Position numbers and translations under genes: made by a program. A stretch of 37,718 nucleotides of DNA from positions 1-37,718 of the IMG/VR virus record IMGVR_UViG_3300042520_000388, one strand, 5' to 3'. The stretch comes from a virus. Shown here one piece after another: positions 8,442 through 18,560 of the stretch. The notes beneath the pieces are model-generated. The model searched no databases. It saw only the letters and a program-made list of their open reading frames with translations, and was not told the origin of the DNA. The stretch's first letter is position 1. Each line of letters begins with the position of its first letter.

Positions 8442-9389
8442 ATGCAGAAAAGATACACAATCCCGAAACCGCCACACGGCAGCCAAGAATGGTTGAACGC
8501 ACGATGGCAAAACCATGAAGGACAAACACGGATCACAGCATCCGTAGCAGCCGTAGTACACAACGAACACCGGTTCACCACACCAGCAGACCTCGCAGTA
8601 GAACTCTTGGCCAAGACACCCCCCGTGCCAAAAGAACAAAACGATGCGATGCGTCGAGGAACAATCCTTGAAGGACCACTCATGTCGTGGGCATCAGAGA
8701 TACTGAACGCAACCATCACGGAACCACAAGATTTGTACTGCTACGAAGAAGAAGGTGTACGTCTGATGGCAACATTGGATGGCAAAGATTTGTCAGGAAA
8801 AATCTATGAACTGAAAACCTATAACAAAAGGTGGAACGGTCAACTCCCCCCATATTGGAAATGGCAAGGAGTACAACAAGCGATCTGCGCTGATGCAAAC
8901 GAAATCATATGGATCGTTTTTGACTCCGATCTTCAACTGCAATTCCATACACAAACCGTCACATCCGACGAACGCCAACAACACATAGACGCAGTACGCA
9001 AATTCTTGGGGTTCATCGACATGGGGATGATGCCGGAAGGTGCTGACCCCACCTACGACAATGCTTCGGCTTTGTACCCCGAAGGATATGAGAACACTGT
9101 TGTCTTGGGCCATGAGGTATACAACACTTTAGAGCGTTTGTCTATTGCTAAAGAGCAAATCAAATCTGCTGAAGCAGTACGCGACCAGCTGCAAGGCGAG
9201 TTGGGGATGATGCTCGGTGACGCAGAGTACGGATCAATTGACGGGGTGCAGGTCGTATCGTGGAAGAACTCGTCACGTACATCATTTGATGCTAAACAGT
9301 TTGAGAAAGAACATCCAGCATTACACGCAAAGTTTAAGAAAACATCAACCTTCCGCACTATGCGGATCACAGCAAAGGAAAGCAAATGA
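8442..9389 (+). CDS. YqaJ-type recombination exonuclease
   Basis: 315 residues with a strong SD (AAGGAG). The nuclease core is visible: RRGTILEGPL (E77), ATLDG (D113) and YELKTY (E123, K125), the PD-(D/E)XK set of lambda-exonuclease/YqaJ proteins, followed by the Gln-rich KWQGVQQ helix. Such enzymes resect DNA ends 5' to 3' and work with the annealing protein encoded next door. The C-terminal ~90 residues (AKEQIKSAEAVRDQL...) are helical. First gene behind the promoter at 8384; it overlaps the next by 4 bases. Confidence 0.85.
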   Translation: MQKRYTIPKPPHGSQEWLNARWQNHEGQTRITASVAAVVHNEHRFTTPADLAVELLAKTPPVPKEQNDAMRRGTILEGPLMSWASEILNATITEPQDLYCYEEEGVRLMATLDGKDLSGKIYELKTYNKRWNGQLPPYWKWQGVQQAICADANEIIWIVFDSDLQLQFHTQTVTSDERQQHIDAVRKFLGFIDMGMMPEGADPTYDNASALYPEGYENTVVLGHEVYNTLERLSIAKEQIKSAEAVRDQLQGELGMMLGDAEYGSIDGVQVVSWKNSSRTSFDAKQFEKEHPALHAKFKKTSTFRTMRITAKESK

Positions 9390-10683: not shown

Positions 10684-10696
10684 TGTAACAACAACA

Positions 10697-10782
10697 TAAA
10701 GGGTACGCTCCCTCATAACCGGCGCGTGTAGTTGTCCCCTAGCCATTGTCTGATCGCGGTGGACTAGGGGTAAAACCCTTTA
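10697..10782 (+). ncRNA. Predicted three-way-junction RNA / structured leader
   Basis: An 8-bp outer stem (10697-10704 with 10775-10782, all Watson-Crick) encloses two arms: ACGC/GCGT (10705-10708 with 10724-10727) and a strong 7+3 bp arm with one bulged A (10736-10745 with 10760-10770). A competing hairpin, GGTAAA/TTTACC at 10769-10784, would break the outer stem. There is no T-arm or other tRNA mark. It lies between the resolvase and the secreted lysozyme-like gene. It could be a leader, an attenuator or a free small RNA; the pairing is seen by eye only. Confidence 0.4.
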
Positions 10783-10804
10783 CCTGTAAGGAACCCGACC
10801 TTTT

Positions 10805-10813
10805 TGCTATGAT
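10805..10813 (+). promoter_or_regulatory. Candidate extended -10 promoter
   Basis: TGCTATGAT (TGn plus TATGAT at 10808-10813), with no good -35 box at the right distance. It would start transcription near 10820, a few bases before ATG 10825. If so, the structured region at 10697-10782 would belong to the upstream transcript. Confidence 0.4.
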
Positions 10814-10824
10814 TGGAGACACTA

Positions 10825-11346
10825 ATGCGAAACCTTGTACGGCTATTTGCCGTTTCTATGGTAGGGATTATCACCTTCGGCAGCATCGCTTCAGCAGCCA
10901 AAGCCCCTTTGCCAACCCTTGAACCTCTTAGCGTGGCTGTCCGTGCGTCTGAGAAGGCATCTGAACCTGACATCGTGTTCCGTCACGGCGACATCTCATG
11001 GCTACCAGAACTAGCCACCGAAGCAGGCTGGCCACCTCACACATGGAAGAAATTGGGTCACATAATCCTACGCGAATCCGGCGGCTGCCCGACCCGTATC
11101 GGCGGCTCTGTAGTGGACAAAGATTGCAACCTGATTCGCATGGCAACCATGTCGCATCCATCAGATACAGGACTCCTACAGATCAATGGAATCAACTGGG
11201 ATTTTGAGCGAACCAAACTTGCAATTGTCTGTGTCCGTATGAAAGTATGCACCCAGGAGGAACTGATGAACCCGATAACAAACTTACGTGCTGGCAAACT
11301 ACTGTTTGATGTGGCAGGCTGGAGTCCGTGGAATACGACGAAATGA
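10825..11346 (+). CDS. Secreted lysozyme/transglycosylase-like protein
   Basis: 173 residues from ATG 10825 (GGAG six bases before; the TTG at 10813 is rejected). A signal peptide is clear (MRNLVRLFAV...ASA, cleavage near residue 24). The mature part carries ILRESGG (candidate catalytic Glu), then DTGLLQIN, the motif pair typical of lysozyme-like/SLT and resuscitation-factor-like folds, with several Cys that may form disulfides. It acts outside the membrane if exported. It is separated from the lysis genes and heads a group with WhiB, so it may act early, for example on the wall during infection or in superinfection exclusion (inference). Confidence 0.7.
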   Translation: MRNLVRLFAVSMVGIITFGSIASAAKAPLPTLEPLSVAVRASEKASEPDIVFRHGDISWLPELATEAGWPPHTWKKLGHIILRESGGCPTRIGGSVVDKDCNLIRMATMSHPSDTGLLQINGINWDFERTKLAIVCVRMKVCTQEELMNPITNLRAGKLLFDVAGWSPWNTTK

Positions 11347-14318: not shown

Positions 14319-14449
14319 ACGATCAACCGTCGCTGTTCGACATCACTGACCCGTACAAGGCCGGCGATAATCCGCTGGCCGACTGGACTGATGACCAGAT
14401 CGAACACTTGGTATCGATATGGAAAAAAAATATCAAAAACAATCCTTGA
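14315..14449 (+). CDS. Very small hypothetical protein
   Basis: 44 residues from ATG 14315 (ATGA overlap). It is acidic with a helical end (DDQIEHLVSIWKKNIKNNP) and a 'LFDITDPYKAGDNPLADW' start. The stop TGA lies inside the -35 box of the following promoter. Called from the overlaps and the protein-like composition. Confidence 0.45.
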   Translation: MNDQPSLFDITDPYKAGDNPLADWTDDQIEHLVSIWKKNIKNNP

Positions 14450-14474
14450 CATTGTGCCGGCGATAGGTAATACT
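14446..14474 (+). promoter_or_regulatory. Sigma-70-type promoter heading the small-gene island
   Basis: TTGACA (14446-14451), 17 bases, AATACT (14469-14474; 4 of 6). The start site would be near 14481. As at 8384, the stop codon of the gene upstream (14447-14449) is embedded in the -35 box. Confidence 0.6.
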
Positions 14475-14482
14475 CTTGTTAG

Positions 14483-14497
14483 CCCCGCTTGACGGGG
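14483..14497 (+). other. Small leader hairpin
   Basis: CCCCG (14483-14487) pairs with CGGGG (14493-14497) around a 5-base loop, directly before the SD hairpin at 14499. It may space or insulate that element. Confidence 0.45.
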
Positions 14498-14498
14498 G

Positions 14499-14515
14499 AA
14501 CAGTTGGGAGACTGT
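14499..14515 (+). promoter_or_regulatory. Leader hairpin with Shine-Dalgarno in the loop, copy 1
   Basis: The 17-mer AACAGTTGGGAGACTGT folds as ACAGT/ACTGT with loop TGGGAG, which presents GGGAG five bases before ATG 14516. The identical 17-mer occurs at 16571-16587 behind another promoter. It may be a translational operator. Confidence 0.65.
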
Positions 14516-15127
14516 ATGAAACAAGTAACGGTTACAGAAACCGTGTTTTTATTGGGCGAATTGTCTGATACGGCACGTGAAAAAGCGTTAGAAAAAATGC
14601 GTAACGTATTGTATGAATGGTTAGGCAGCAGCCAGATCACCGATCATCTGAACGGCGAGCTGTATTCCGCGCTCACTGGCACATACGACGGGGATCTAAG
14701 CAAAAAAGAATTGTCTAAGCGCGTTGGCCTAACTATCGAATGGTCACTGTCACACTGTCAAGGTGACGGGGTAGCTATCTATGGCACACTCTATAAAGAT
14801 GACGCGCCCAACGTAGAATGGCACGGAGCAGACACCGCCACGTTCACCCGCAATAGTCACGGCCACCATTACAGCCACGAAAACTGTATGACTATCGCAT
14901 TGTTCACTAGTGACGATGACGGTTGTTCGATTGACGCAGACACAGACACAACCGAAACGTTTGCCGAACAATTCCGTAATCTATGTCGCGAACTAGCACG
15001 ATCAGGTTACGCGGAGATTGACAACCTAACCAGTGAACAAGCCGTATTAGAATATCTCGAATGGTCTGAGCCGCGTCGGTTCACCGAAGACGGAGATATT
15101 CACCCGACAAAATGGTGGGGGGAATAA
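14516..15127 (+). CDS. Hypothetical protein, first gene of the island
   Basis: 203 residues from ATG 14516. The start (VTVTETVFLLGELSDTAREKALEKM) resembles a phage family in which an ELSDxAKEKA helix follows a short strand; I recall these mostly as proteins without known function. The middle is rich in His and Asp (NSHGHHYSHEN; DDDGCSIDADTDT). It is translated from the SD held in the hairpin at 14499. The stop overlaps the next start (TAATG). Confidence 0.55.
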   Translation: MKQVTVTETVFLLGELSDTAREKALEKMRNVLYEWLGSSQITDHLNGELYSALTGTYDGDLSKKELSKRVGLTIEWSLSHCQGDGVAIYGTLYKDDAPNVEWHGADTATFTRNSHGHHYSHENCMTIALFTSDDDGCSIDADTDTTETFAEQFRNLCRELARSGYAEIDNLTSEQAVLEYLEWSEPRRFTEDGDIHPTKWWGE

Positions 15128-15285
15128 TGGCCACCACTACAGCACCGGCTTGGAATTATTACCGGTCACAATTAGCCGGTACGCCTTGCGCGGAATGCGC
15201 TATTTGCGGAATGATCTACGTCTATTGGGAAACCGAAGACTTGGAATATCACACTCAACAACACGAAACGGAGACAGCACAATGA
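15127..15285 (+). CDS. Small C2H2 zinc-finger-like protein
   Basis: 52 residues, TAATG overlap. It carries C-x2-C (C24, C27) and H-x3-H (H42, H46) separated by 14 residues, the spacing of single C2H2/Ros-like fingers, with an extra Cys at 21. It may bind DNA or RNA. The end carries the junction repeat GGAGACAGCACAATGAA. Confidence 0.55.
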   Translation: MATTTAPAWNYYRSQLAGTPCAECAICGMIYVYWETEDLEYHTQQHETETAQ

Positions 15286-15286
15286 A
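15270..15286 (+). repeat. Gene-junction repeat, copy 1
   Basis: 17-mer GGAGACAGCACAATGAA spanning the SD and start of the gene at 15282 and the stop of the gene before; identical at 15500-15516. A shorter form (AGCACAATGA) occurs at 15981. Confidence 0.75.
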
Positions 15287-15515
15287 AGTGAAATATGCGA
15301 TACAACAACTATCAGCACTAAAACCCGATGAAGAAATTGTTATCGCCTACTGGACTAAAGAATGGTTCATAGACGTACTTGGCAGGGAAATAAACGATGA
15401 CCAATGGGATGACATCACCGGAGAATGTGACGATGTGATCGACAATATGCCTATCGGGGATTACCTAGAAACCGCAGCCAACGAAATACTTGACAACGAG
15501 GAGACAGCACAATGA
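15282..15515 (+). CDS. Acidic hypothetical protein
   Basis: 77 residues, ATGA overlap, SD GGAG inside the junction repeat. It is strongly acidic (DDQWDDITGECDDVIDN) and helical at the end. The size and charge would fit a DNA mimic or a small inhibitor of a host protein, but nothing specific is visible. Confidence 0.5.
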   Translation: MKVKYAIQQLSALKPDEEIVIAYWTKEWFIDVLGREINDDQWDDITGECDDVIDNMPIGDYLETAANEILDNEETAQ

Positions 15516-15516
15516 A
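15500..15516 (+). repeat. Gene-junction repeat, copy 2
   Basis: Identical 17-mer to 15270-15286 at the next gene junction, 230 bases downstream. Confidence 0.75.
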
Positions 15517-15811
15517 CTTACGCGCATTACAACAATTCACCGACGAAATATTTGGGCAAAACCGGCATACCGACAGTATGAACGACTACTACCCGCACAC
15601 ACTGTACCTAGATACCGAACAAGGCACGTATGGTGACGCGTCACGAATAGCATTGATCAGTACAACTGACTGGACACAAGATGATTGTGACGCTTGGGAG
15701 TGTATGACCGACAGCGAGCGCAACGAATACGCGAGAGAACACAACCGTTACAACGGCCAATGCCTAAACCCATTGGAATACCAACGCGAGACTGGCAGCG
15801 ACAACCAATGA
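15512..15811 (+). CDS. Hypothetical protein
   Basis: 99 residues, ATGA overlap, SD from the second junction repeat. It is acidic and rich in Tyr, Asn and Asp (NDYYPHTLYLDTEQGTYGDAS; AREHNRYNGQ). No family is recognised. Confidence 0.5.
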   Translation: MNLRALQQFTDEIFGQNRHTDSMNDYYPHTLYLDTEQGTYGDASRIALISTTDWTQDDCDAWECMTDSERNEYAREHNRYNGQCLNPLEYQRETGSDNQ

Positions 15812-15990
15812 AGCCGCTACTGCACCGCGTTGTGGCGGTATCCAACCTATGCACAGTCACAACTTTTGTAACCGCGCACGATGACGATGAAGCCGAACTT
15901 ATGGGATTGCAGCAGATAGCAGATGAGTTTGGATTTACTGATACGTCTATGTTTTTTGACATTGAGACAGAATGTGAAGAAGCACAATGA
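15808..15990 (+). CDS. Hypothetical protein
   Basis: 60 residues, ATGA overlap at both ends. It has a short strand-like start (LLHRVVAVSNLCTVTTFVTA) followed by an acidic helical part (DDDEAELMGLQQIADEFG), like a small alpha-beta fold. The function is unknown. Confidence 0.5.
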   Translation: MKPLLHRVVAVSNLCTVTTFVTAHDDDEAELMGLQQIADEFGFTDTSMFFDIETECEEAQ

Positions 15991-16157
15991 CCGACAGCCT
16001 CATATTCCGCGCTACCGCCACCACCATAATCGTGACCGTAGGTATATGTGCCGTGACAGTAGGCGCCAACGCCGGCTATCTATGGTGGGCAACAATGCTC
16101 ATCTCGATCTACCCGTTCACCCACCTTTACTACCGACACAAACAAACTCGCCGCTAA
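15987..16157 (+). CDS. Small two-helix membrane protein
   Basis: 56 residues, ATGA overlap. Two hydrophobic stretches (TATTIIVTVGICAVTVGA and YLWWATMLISIYPF) and a basic end (YYRHKQTRR, positive-inside) indicate a membrane hairpin. It lies far from the lysis genes, so a role in excluding other phages or altering the host membrane is possible. Confidence 0.55.
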   Translation: MTDSLIFRATATTIIVTVGICAVTVGANAGYLWWATMLISIYPFTHLYYRHKQTRR

Positions 16158-16164
16158 CAAGTAC

Positions 16165-16203
16165 CGGTAGTGGGGTCACACTCCCAAGCTGGCACCACTA
16201 CCG
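16165..16203 (+). repeat. 9-bp inverted repeat in intergenic region
   Basis: CGGTAGTGG (16165-16173) pairs with CCACTACCG (16195-16203), loop 21 bases; a second register (CCGGTAG with CTACCGG, starting at 16164) is also possible. No T-run follows, so it is not a standard terminator. The 168-base gap (16158-16325) also has TAAAG/CTTTA at 16283-16294 and GTCTTT/AAAGAC at 16287-16311. Confidence 0.6.
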
Positions 16204-16317
16204 CTACCGGCACCACAACCGACTACACCGCGACAGCACACGTAAGTTACCGATCAGTAATCGAACTAGTGTTCGTATAGCGTAAAGTCTTTACATTGTC
16301 AAACCCAAAGACGCTCA

Positions 16318-16340
16318 TATTAGGTATGAAATACCTAATA
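16318..16340 (+). promoter_or_regulatory. 23-bp palindrome across a start codon (operator or translation lock)
   Basis: Two perfect 10-bp arms, TATTAGGTAT (16318-16327) and ATACCTAATA (16331-16340), with a 3-base centre. The arms take in the first two bases of ATG 16326. As DNA it would suit a dimeric repressor; as RNA it would hide the start codon. Confidence 0.7.
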
Positions 16341-16526
16341 CAAATAGACACCGCCGCCGGCCAACTCACTATCGGCCACTTCGACACACTCACCGCCGCG
16401 CGCAGATATCTTTCCAAAGTTAGATCCGGCGTAATTGTGCCACTGATCCCCGCACACGCGGCAACAGCTCAACAGCTCACAACTTCCACCCGCGATCAAA
16501 TATATTTAATGCTTGACAAAATCTAA
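16326..16526 (+). CDS. Hypothetical small alpha-beta protein
   Basis: 66 residues from ATG 16326; a TTG at 16296 would add ten residues (MSNPKTLILG) and avoid the palindrome, but it has no better SD. The sequence (YLIQIDTAAGQLTIGHFDTLTAARRYLSKV) looks like a small folded protein. The start sits inside the palindrome 16318-16340, so self-regulation is possible. The 3' end holds the promoter for the next gene. Confidence 0.5.
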   Translation: MKYLIQIDTAAGQLTIGHFDTLTAARRYLSKVRSGVIVPLIPAHAATAQQLTTSTRDQIYLMLDKI

Positions 16527-16541
16527 AAAGTATGATCTAAT
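16513..16541 (+). promoter_or_regulatory. Strong sigma-70-type promoter
   Basis: TTGACA (16513-16518), 17 bases, TCTAAT (16536-16541; 5 of 6). The start site would be near 16548, giving a leader of about 46 bases that carries the SD hairpin at 16571. Confidence 0.75.
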
Positions 16542-16570
16542 CATAAAGCGCACGAAAACAACGAGCGCGC

Positions 16571-16587
16571 AACAGTTGGGAGACTGT
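16571..16587 (+). promoter_or_regulatory. Leader hairpin with Shine-Dalgarno in the loop, copy 2
   Basis: Same 17-mer as at 14499-14515, with the SD 11 bases before ATG 16594 instead of 5. The surrounding leader is unrelated to that of copy 1, so the 17-mer is the conserved unit. Confidence 0.65.
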
Positions 16588-16593
16588 CAAACA

Positions 16594-17205
16594 ATGAGCG
16601 CATACCAAGTAGACACCGATCTAATTGACCTGATCGTATCGGCCACCACCGAGCGCGATTACAACCGCGACCACGTAAACCCGCTATATATGTATCTACC
16701 GGCAGTTACGCCCACGATATACACAGCCGAACTAATCGAGCTGACCGAACACCGCGAAGGGTACAGCGTGATCACACTGCCCAACGGCCAACCCCTAGCG
16801 CACTTGGGAAACCGCGCAGACCGCGAGACGCTGATAGGTCGTGAACTAATAGCGGCGAATTGTGCGAGCCTTGCGGCACGATACAGCGACACCAACGCCG
16901 ACAAAATCGGCGGGATGATCTCATATTTGCCAACTGATTACACGTACCGCCGCGTATGCCGCGACAGGTTCGCCGACTTCGGGCACGTGTTTGGCGCGTT
17001 GGCTTGCTTCGAGTATCAGTCGTGCGAAACCGGCCAGAGAACGCTTGCCGAAATGATCACCGAACGAACCCGCAAAAGTATCGCCGCCGGCGTAGCCGCC
17101 GAAACAGACGAAGCCCGCGCCGCGTGGGGTAGCTGGTCACGTGAATATCAACAAACCCGCCACCAAGAAACCCGCGCACAAATAGCCGAAATGATGAACC
17201 AATGA
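16594..17205 (+). CDS. Conserved actinophage-type protein (CFEYQSCE motif)
   Basis: 203 residues from ATG 16594; an upstream in-frame start at 16513 is rejected because it lies in the promoter. The motif ALACFEYQSCE near residue 140-150, preceded by a segment about a 'LIAANCASLAARY' helix, is one I recall from many actinophage early proteins of unknown function. Translation uses the SD in the hairpin at 16571. The last ~50 residues are helical and charged. Confidence 0.6.
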   Translation: MSAYQVDTDLIDLIVSATTERDYNRDHVNPLYMYLPAVTPTIYTAELIELTEHREGYSVITLPNGQPLAHLGNRADRETLIGRELIAANCASLAARYSDTNADKIGGMISYLPTDYTYRRVCRDRFADFGHVFGALACFEYQSCETGQRTLAEMITERTRKSIAAGVAAETDEARAAWGSWSREYQQTRHQETRAQIAEMMNQ

Positions 17206-17408
17206 CCGAACTACAAGCAATCCCACTGACCGCGCTCGTTATGGCATCACCGTTTATCGCTGGCGCCATAATTGGCCAACTAATGAGCCACCGCAAACCC
17301 CGCACACGAACACCAAACGCCGAACTAATCCAACGCCGGCGCGCACAAATCGAGCGCAACAGCGCACGAAAAACAACAACCCAACAGAACAGGAACAAAA
17401 CCAAATGA
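17202..17408 (+). CDS. Small membrane protein with basic tail
   Basis: 68 residues, ATGA overlap. One N-terminal hydrophobic helix (IPLTALVMASPFIAGAIIGQLM) is followed by a long basic cytoplasmic tail (HRKPRTRTPN...RRRAQIERNSARKTTTQQ). The plan is a single-pass membrane protein that might bring a nucleic acid or protein to the membrane. The function is unknown. Confidence 0.55.
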   Translation: MTELQAIPLTALVMASPFIAGAIIGQLMSHRKPRTRTPNAELIQRRRAQIERNSARKTTTQQNRNKTK

Positions 17409-18022
17409 GCAACGATCAGAAAACCCAACTAGGCCAAATCACCGGCACATTAAAAGACCTTGCGCAAGTGTTCGCAATCGTCACACCGTACGCCAGCACC
17501 GACAAGCAATCTCTACAACTGGCCACGATCACCGGCGCAGTGTTCGAGTGTTGCGACAGTTACGCCGCAGTAAAACACACCACAGACCAACTAACCACAG
17601 CAGCCACCCCGCAACCGTTCACACTGCCCGCCAGCGAAGTATCAAAAGCACTCACAGCAGCAGCCAAACTAGCCGGAAAACACGCCGGCCAAGTCACAGC
17701 CACATTGACCGCCACGCCGGAAGCGTGGACACTCACCACCACAGCAGGCCACACCCACACCGGAAACAACCCACAACACGAAACACCCAACACCAGCCAG
17801 ATCTGGCACGACGCACAAACCACAACGCCGGACACGTTCGAGCCGTTCAGCCTTGCCCAATGGCAGCTCGAAAGACTAGCCAAAACCACCAAACAGGCCG
17901 CCAACAACGACCAACCCGCAACACTCACCAACTACAGCACACCCACCAAACCAGTCATCTACACAATCACAACACCCACCAGCAGCACTCTAGTGCTAGT
18001 AATGCCAACCAAAACCAAATAG
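17405..18022 (+). CDS. Short beta-clamp-like protein
   Basis: 205 residues, ATGA overlap. Clamp-like features: a first segment ending '..LQLATITGAVFECCDSYAAVKHT', like the clamp 'V.ATDSYRL' strand; a FTLPASEVSKALTAA helix; and a C-terminus PTKPVIYTI...LVLVMPTK, which resembles the canonical end 'KP....YLIMPVRL'. It is little more than half the length of a bacterial DnaN (about 370 residues), closer to clamps that work as trimers. No polymerase is seen in the window, so it may serve the host replisome. The similarity is by eye. Confidence 0.45.
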   Translation: MSNDQKTQLGQITGTLKDLAQVFAIVTPYASTDKQSLQLATITGAVFECCDSYAAVKHTTDQLTTAATPQPFTLPASEVSKALTAAAKLAGKHAGQVTATLTATPEAWTLTTTAGHTHTGNNPQHETPNTSQIWHDAQTTTPDTFEPFSLAQWQLERLAKTTKQAANNDQPATLTNYSTPTKPVIYTITTPTSSTLVLVMPTKTK

Positions 18023-18129: not shown

Positions 18130-18500
18130 GTGCTATCCCGCCACAAGTCAAACGCCGGACAGCAACACAGCTGCACACCAACACCAGCCACCAGCTAGGC
18201 GATCGCCGCAAATGCTTACTACTTGCCGACCCTATCCCCTATTGCCAAGCCGTATCGGGGTACCCCCACCCATTCAGCCGGCCAAACCAACCGGCAACAC
18301 CAACGCCGGCAGAGATCGACAGCTCACACCAATCACCCAGCACCTAGATCACTAACTGGGGTAGTGCCTTGGCCACCGCCCCCTCTATATATCTATTATC
18401 TGTTGTGTCGATATTTGGTTTTGTGAACGCTGTGAGTGGTCGGCTCTTTGGGTTGTGGTGGGTTGACTACTGTGTGTGGTTTCGGGTTTGTATCGTGTTG

Positions 18501-18528
18501 GGAGATATATACATAAATGTGTATCTCC
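18501..18528 (+). repeat. Inverted repeat
   Basis: GGAGATA (18501-18507) with TATCTCC (18522-18528), and an inner ACAT/ATGT pair (18511-18514 with 18517-18520). No T-run follows. Confidence 0.6.
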
Positions 18529-18560
18529 TGGGGTGATGGCGGCCAAAGAGTGATGGTGTT

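Follow-up and report, generated by a model that had tools for sequence, protein, structure and literature searches.

Comparison of a phage genome with its relatives indicates that HP2, the second of two hairpins in a 5' leader, is a genuine RNA element that persists through compensating base changes in its stem while the gene downstream of it is exchanged. The genes behind the leader are swappable and, at the second of two sites, are often ArdA, an antirestriction gene. The window, i.e. the whole stretch of DNA analysed, is a 37.7-kb virus record that includes genes for terminase, portal, capsid, RecE-like exonuclease, annealing protein and cytosine methyltransferase. Its nearest named relatives are the Streptomyces phages Kumquat and FlowerPower and, because the capsid protein of the window is about 43% identical to their capsids, the host is inferred to be probably an actinobacterium.

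The two leaders of the window

The 17-mer AACAGTTGGGAGACTGT occurs exactly at positions 14499-14515 and 16571-16587, both on the + strand. With up to three mismatches allowed, these were still the only two matches in the window, against a mean of 0.12 in shuffled sequences, none of which reached 2, so that the identical copies described in an earlier note on this DNA are true and beyond chance. That note had also placed each copy after a TTGACA promoter and ahead of a gene of about 200 residues, and this was borne out by the promoters found (TTGACA-17-AATACT and TTGACA-17-TCTAAT) and by the length of the two genes, 203 residues each. The remaining parts of the leaders had been considered unrelated, but they follow a common plan, with an own hairpin at about the expected transcript start in each of them.

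All features of both leaders are on the + strand. In leader 1, a sigma70-type promoter (14446..14474), retained in close relatives as TTGACA-17-[AC]ATACT, is followed by a first hairpin, HP1 (CCCCG-CTTGA-CGGGG, 14483..14497), which starts at about the expected transcript start and was identified by RNAfold and alignment. HP2 (ACAGT-[TGGGAG]-ACTGT, 14500..14515), identified by RNAfold and covariation, carries the Shine-Dalgarno (SD) sequence GGAG within its loop (14505-14510). The cargo gene (14516..15127) encodes an acidic protein of 203 aa (pI 4.6) assigned to phrog_5162 (PHROGs, E 7.9e-18). In leader 2, the promoter (16513..16541) was read from the sequence directly and is retained in relatives; HP1, GCGC-(ACGAAAACAACGA)-GCGC, was predicted by RNAfold at 16548..16568, and HP2, ACAGT-[TGGGAG]-ACTGT (16572..16587, loop 16577-16582), by RNAfold and the exact repeat. 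The second cargo gene (16594..17205) encodes 203 aa of no family, and in relatives this slot contains ArdA or other unrelated genes. The HP2 loops start 59 nt (leader 1) and 64 nt (leader 2) after the start of the -35 box, and in the RNAfold prediction ACAGTT paired with GACTGT around GGGA.

Leaders in related phages

Relatives were drawn from IMG/VR viral contigs. A query with the site-1 protein yielded ten loci in viral contigs, and a query with an alignment of this protein yielded thirty. Although no leader sequence was part of the query, the same leader plan was present in all homologues down to about 42% identity in which the upstream region was read. Further leaders were gathered by scanning for patterns of the two 5' hairpins and for ArdA, and at least one complete leader was found in about thirty distinct contigs. 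The leader is missing from homologues of the site-1 protein with less than about 40% identity (L067-L073). More distant relatives of the site-1 protein (L074-L083, mostly 25-29% identity), located in alphaproteobacterial assemblies and in Yokenella, are also without it. The early genes of Kumquat and FlowerPower, one of them ArdA-like, have plain SDs, and HP2 was not found ahead of any of these early genes; in the Streptomyces phage relatives GGGAG is a usual early-gene SD, without a hairpin. Exact 16-mer matches (L001, L002, L004, L005, L007, L008 and L011) and matches with the ACGCT stem (L170, L172 and L173) were rejected as chance or unrelated occurrences, lacking a promoter, HP1 and a nearby start codon.

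The plan consists of a sigma70-type promoter, a 5'-terminal HP1, an HP2 with a stem of 4-6 bp and a UGGGAG cap, and an AUG 0-8 nt further on. The distance from the start of the -35 box to the loop was 59-65 nt in nine representative leaders, and the SD-AUG spacing at site 2 was 9-12 nt. Folding of 23 leaders together with their first codons (RNAfold) produced two local hairpins in nearly all of them, HP2 by itself having about -3 to -9 kcal/mol. The sequence of HP1 is free (CCCCG/CGGGG, CCCTA/TAGGG, GCGC/GCGC, GGCC/GGCC, AGATCG/CGATCT, AGCTTG/CAAGCT and GATCA/TGATC); GGCC/GGCC, AGATCG/CGATCT and AGCTTG/CAAGCT are the differently built hairpins that take the position of the leader-2 HP1 in relatives. 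Each genome carries two to four copies of the leader. The module is not placed on every promoter, as the recE-like gene at 8442 has a promoter (8384, TTGACA-17-TAGAGT) with an unstructured AAGGAG leader. HP1 and HP2 are separable, because in a GC-rich lineage ArdA has HP1 with a plain SD, while the neighbouring genes have both hairpins.

Covariation of the hairpin stems

In 15 distinct HP2s, 94.4% of the cells were paired, a fraction inflated because some of these hairpins had been found through TGGGAG before ATG and then chosen for a visible hairpin. They contained 30 two-sided changes and gave a covariation score of 0.897; the shuffle control had a mean of 0.237, with none of 500 shuffles at the observed score (kinship uncorrected), and when the partner was moved by 1-3 columns the score was 0.12 or less. 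After addition of five hairpins from the GC-rich lineage, some of them with G.U pairs, the 20 HP2s scored 1.031 versus 0.237.

A fairer set is formed by 13 site-1 leaders, all obtained by homology of the downstream protein except the window and L148 (ArdA scan). Over the nine pairs of both helices 99.1% of the cells were paired, with 23 two-sided changes; in HP1 of leader 1 the figure was 100%, pairs 4 and 5 switching from C-G to U-A and from G-C to A-U, with one U.G. The site-2 set, which was fetched by a pattern with no stem specified, contained CAGT/ACTG, CCGT/ACGG and AGCT/AGCT, and the leader-2 HP2 stems in relatives also include GCACT/AGTGC, ACGCT/AGCGT and GCCTA/TAGGC. The identity of both stems in the window is not general, since in most relatives the stems differ between site 1 and site 2, and because they differ between the sites of one phage, nothing but the loop is common. 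Compensating changes recur across separate lineages and separate sites, and in the hairpin ACTAG-ACGGGAGA-CTAGT of L063/L160, which contains an internal mismatch, pairing is retained on either side. According to the earlier note, copies with the loop kept and the stem lost would speak against any role of the stem; the reverse was found, the stem being altered by compensating pairs, which argues that it is selected as a stem. HP2 is thus supported as a conserved RNA structure.

Conservation of the loop

Loop position 1 was T or C and positions 3-6 were GGAG in all 20 distinct hairpins. TGGGAG was the top loop among the 975 hexaloop hairpins that stand ahead of an ATG in the window together with its seven near-complete relatives (18 occurrences, the next loop having 6), and its count in Markov shuffles was 0 or 1. 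Loop bases 1 and 2 lie outside the stretch that pairs with the anti-SD. By its sequence, the loop would fit a tetraloop of the GNRA type: GGGA, with U.G or C-G as the closing pair, is present in 18 of the 20 distinct hairpins, UGGA being found in L049 and L146. Pairing of the U or C at position 1 with G6, leaving the GNRA tetraloop GGGA, would explain the conservation of the bases not used by the anti-SD; a protein or nuclease reading the loop would also explain its constancy.

Genes located behind the leaders

Two leaders with 99% identity over 75 bases (L167 and L169) precede unrelated proteins, and non-homologous cargo is also found behind the leaders shared by L165/L171 (96%), L015/L016 (95%) and window/L020 (87%). 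At site 1, the usual phrog_5162 gene is replaced by others in L039, L165, L166 and L168. At site 2, all three cargo representatives tested against Pfam matched ArdA, and another three proteins align with them over their whole length. In L165-L169 and L171, the first ten codons or so at site 2 (MNTTTT.T.LD) are shared and are followed by either ArdA or an unrelated 136-aa protein. The sharing of these codons along with the leader suggests that the exchange point in the L165-L171 group may lie just inside the gene.

The other cargo proteins tested matched no known family, except a clamp-like protein in L060. The protein encoded at 17405-18022 of the window is common to the seven near-complete relatives; its L060 homologue, which matches phrog_947 (1.2e-9; DNA polymerase processivity factor), follows a CTAGA-CGGGAG-ACTAG leader. 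No match was obtained when the cargo was analysed with PADLOC, and a fold search with the site-1 protein gave no PDB match and only uncharacterised phage proteins. Several cargo proteins are strongly acidic, as are some ordinary proteins of the window. An anti-defence role of the slots is a reasonable supposition for ArdA, and no more than conjecture for the other cargo.

Other structured elements

A hairpin, GGAGATATATACAT-aa-ATGTGTATCTCC, is located at 18490-18530 of the window, in the gap before the terminase gene, and is conserved in most close relatives. The GGGAG at 18499, considered as a third copy in the window, was rejected: it is conserved, yet it belongs to a different, longer hairpin and no gene follows it. 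In L137, L139 and L144, from the GC-rich lineage, a 5'-terminal hairpin before ArdA has GGAG/GAGG in its own loop, well upstream of the plain SD.

Positions 10684-10812 of the window (+ strand), upstream of a lysozyme-like gene at 10825, contain a structured-RNA candidate with helices in the order P1-P2-P3-P1'-P4-P2', an order that would match the nested double pseudoknot by which HDV-like ribozymes are built. Seven relatives show covariation of P1 and P4, and L017 lacks the stretch. It differs from HDV-like ribozymes in a P1 longer than usual and in a U in the window at the expected catalytic C, and a comparison with Rfam gave no HDV family at E<=5. A trans RNA from this intergenic region, with a CTCCCT loop, was also considered as a common partner of the leaders and discarded, as L010, L021 and L127 do not have the loop and L017 does not have the element at all.

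Search for a reader and comparison with known systems

The earlier note proposed a shared translational operator, its reader being either an RNA-binding protein of phage or host or an antisense RNA. The structural part of the protein-read operator stood, the stem structure being selected; a reader protein was not found among the candidates searched (CsrA, RegB and the site-1 protein). CsrA was absent from 22 phage records, while the controls E. coli, B. subtilis and T. maritima were matched. The search for a RegB homologue found none, and the control genomes gave no match either. None of the window proteins that were scanned matched an RNA-binding family. The site-1 protein cannot be a general reader: one phage with no tblastn match to it (G015) keeps both leaders (L026 and L039). 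RecE-like exonuclease, annealing protein, clamp-like protein and a 56-residue protein just upstream of site 1 are present in all seven near-complete relatives, and none of these is an evident RNA binder. Reading by an antisense RNA is unsupported: the stem sequence is free and independent at both sites, which rules out an antisense RNA directed at the stem, and only the six loop bases TGGGAG are common, which also constitute the SD.

CsrA/RsmE hairpins resemble HP2 in that a short stem bears a loop of six bases containing GGA, and they often overlap the SD (PMC7652899). They differ at loop position 1, since the A before RGGA (ACA-R-GGA) is fully conserved in CsrA SELEX sites (PMC7652899), whereas the HP2 loop opens with U or C. 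At T4 RegB sites, as here, GGAG is the early-gene SD, and RegB acts without cofactor when GGA is unpaired and the next G partly constrained (PMC3014915); however, every copy here is inside a covarying hairpin. In mobE-type hairpins the ribosome-binding site is sequestered by pairing. These hairpins of T4-like homing endonuclease genes such as mobE, cited in PMC3014915, resemble HP2 in their location, the ribosome-binding site of an accessory gene that is mobile. HP2 differs from this type in the SD within the loop, the fixed loop sequence and the separate 5' hairpin alongside. The Aca2 RNA operator of anti-CRISPR genes is also a hairpin at the ribosome-binding site, and Aca2 reads a specific sequence also in DNA. 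Both are ribosome-binding-site hairpins of phage anti-defence genes, but in HP2 the stem sequence is free. The ompA leader has a 5'-terminal hairpin that stabilises the mRNA; HP1 shares with it the location at the extreme 5' end and differs in being coupled to a second, SD-carrying hairpin.

Possible functions of the leader

HP2 is tentatively favoured as a self-folding, insulated ribosome-binding module rather than as a protein-read operator. The two-hairpin leader, of about 35-50 nt, would start at a host-type promoter, at a transcript start predicted from the promoter position. HP1, a free-sequence hairpin at the 5' end, would most simply be a shield against 5'-end-dependent decay. In HP2, a short stem would bear the GGGA tetraloop, and the SD core GGAG would extend from this loop into the G that closes it; with the SD held in a constant local fold, mispairing with whichever gene is swapped in would be avoided, and this insulation would be the presumed benefit. 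HP2 would be weak enough for the ribosome to open it, the range of about -3 to -9 kcal/mol being that in which, from work on the MS2 coat gene, structure at the ribosome-binding site begins to limit translation. The module would serve exchangeable, probably early accessory genes such as ArdA. The stem covariation with free sequence, the fixed loop and the retention of the leader while the cargo is exchanged speak for this insulated module. Against it, the constancy of TGGGAG exceeds what an SD needs, and the site-2 SD-AUG spacing of 9-12 nt is long for maximal translation. In addition, the hairpin is not needed for the GGGAG SD of the Streptomyces phages, since the early genes there lack it. 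HP2 must open for initiation, because the 3' arm of its stem fills the SD-AUG spacer, and this opening fits an operator at least as well as a module. The exchangeable cargo favours a passive module, whereas the constancy of the loop and the multiple copies favour an active reader.

The strongest alternative, although rather unlikely, is a translational operator: an RNA-binding protein of the phage or the host would recognise UGGGAG atop any short stem, stabilise the structure and turn off several genes together. Such an operator would account for a loop conserved beyond the needs of the SD on free stems, for two to four copies per genome in the manner of a regulon and for the selective use of the leader, which the recE promoter does without, and the hexaloop with GGA at positions 3-5 has the geometry of a CsrA site (PMC7652899). 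The lack of CsrA in the 22 phage records, the U or C in place of the SELEX A, the phage that keeps both leaders with the phrog_5162 protein undetected and the lack of RNA-binding families among the scanned window proteins stand against it. An extension, which we regard as doubtful, is that the leaders form a post-transcriptional regulon, in which a single phage-encoded protein or nuclease recognises UGGGAG on whatever stem bears it and turns off all the cargo genes together after their work is done.

It is improbable that the leaders are targeted by an endonuclease specific for SDs, like RegB of T4, which would cut GGAG and inactivate early mRNAs: the geometry of unpaired GGA and constrained next G is that of GGGA closed by U.G, but the consensus of T4 sites is rich in A on the 3' side and structured RNA is usually spared by RegB (PMC3014915), and no homologue was found in a search in which the controls were also silent. 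An antitermination element of early transcripts, like lambda boxB or the two-hairpin HK022 put site, is very improbable; two adjacent hairpins lie right at the expected transcript start and the cap is of GNRA type, as the boxB loop is GNRA-like, but HP2 invariably includes the SD and lies close ahead of the start codon, an arrangement that antitermination does not call for, and its stems are free, those of put and boxB not being so. A DNA operator, with the ACAGT-N6-ACTGT palindrome bound by a dimeric repressor downstream of the promoter, would suit the near-constant 59-65 nt from the -35 start to the inverted repeat, but it is scarcely credible, as it is the centre TGGGAG, itself no palindrome, that is conserved, while the arms differ in sequence between sites and between phages and retain G.U pairs, which interrupt a palindrome in DNA; free stems with a shared loop rule out an operator with conserved arms.

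Significance

No Rfam family was matched by the leader at or above the gathering score, and the element, which is thus in no Rfam family, belongs to the structured ribosome-binding leaders, a known kind. HP2 probably protects or controls translation. If the regulon were true, any gene swapped in behind the leader would join the programme at once. The leader marks slots for exchangeable genes across a broad set of uncultured phages and, because ArdA is among the cargo genes, it can serve to point out further anti-defence candidates. Another question that it opens to testing is what benefit a structured ribosome-binding site brings to a phage in which the gene downstream is repeatedly exchanged.
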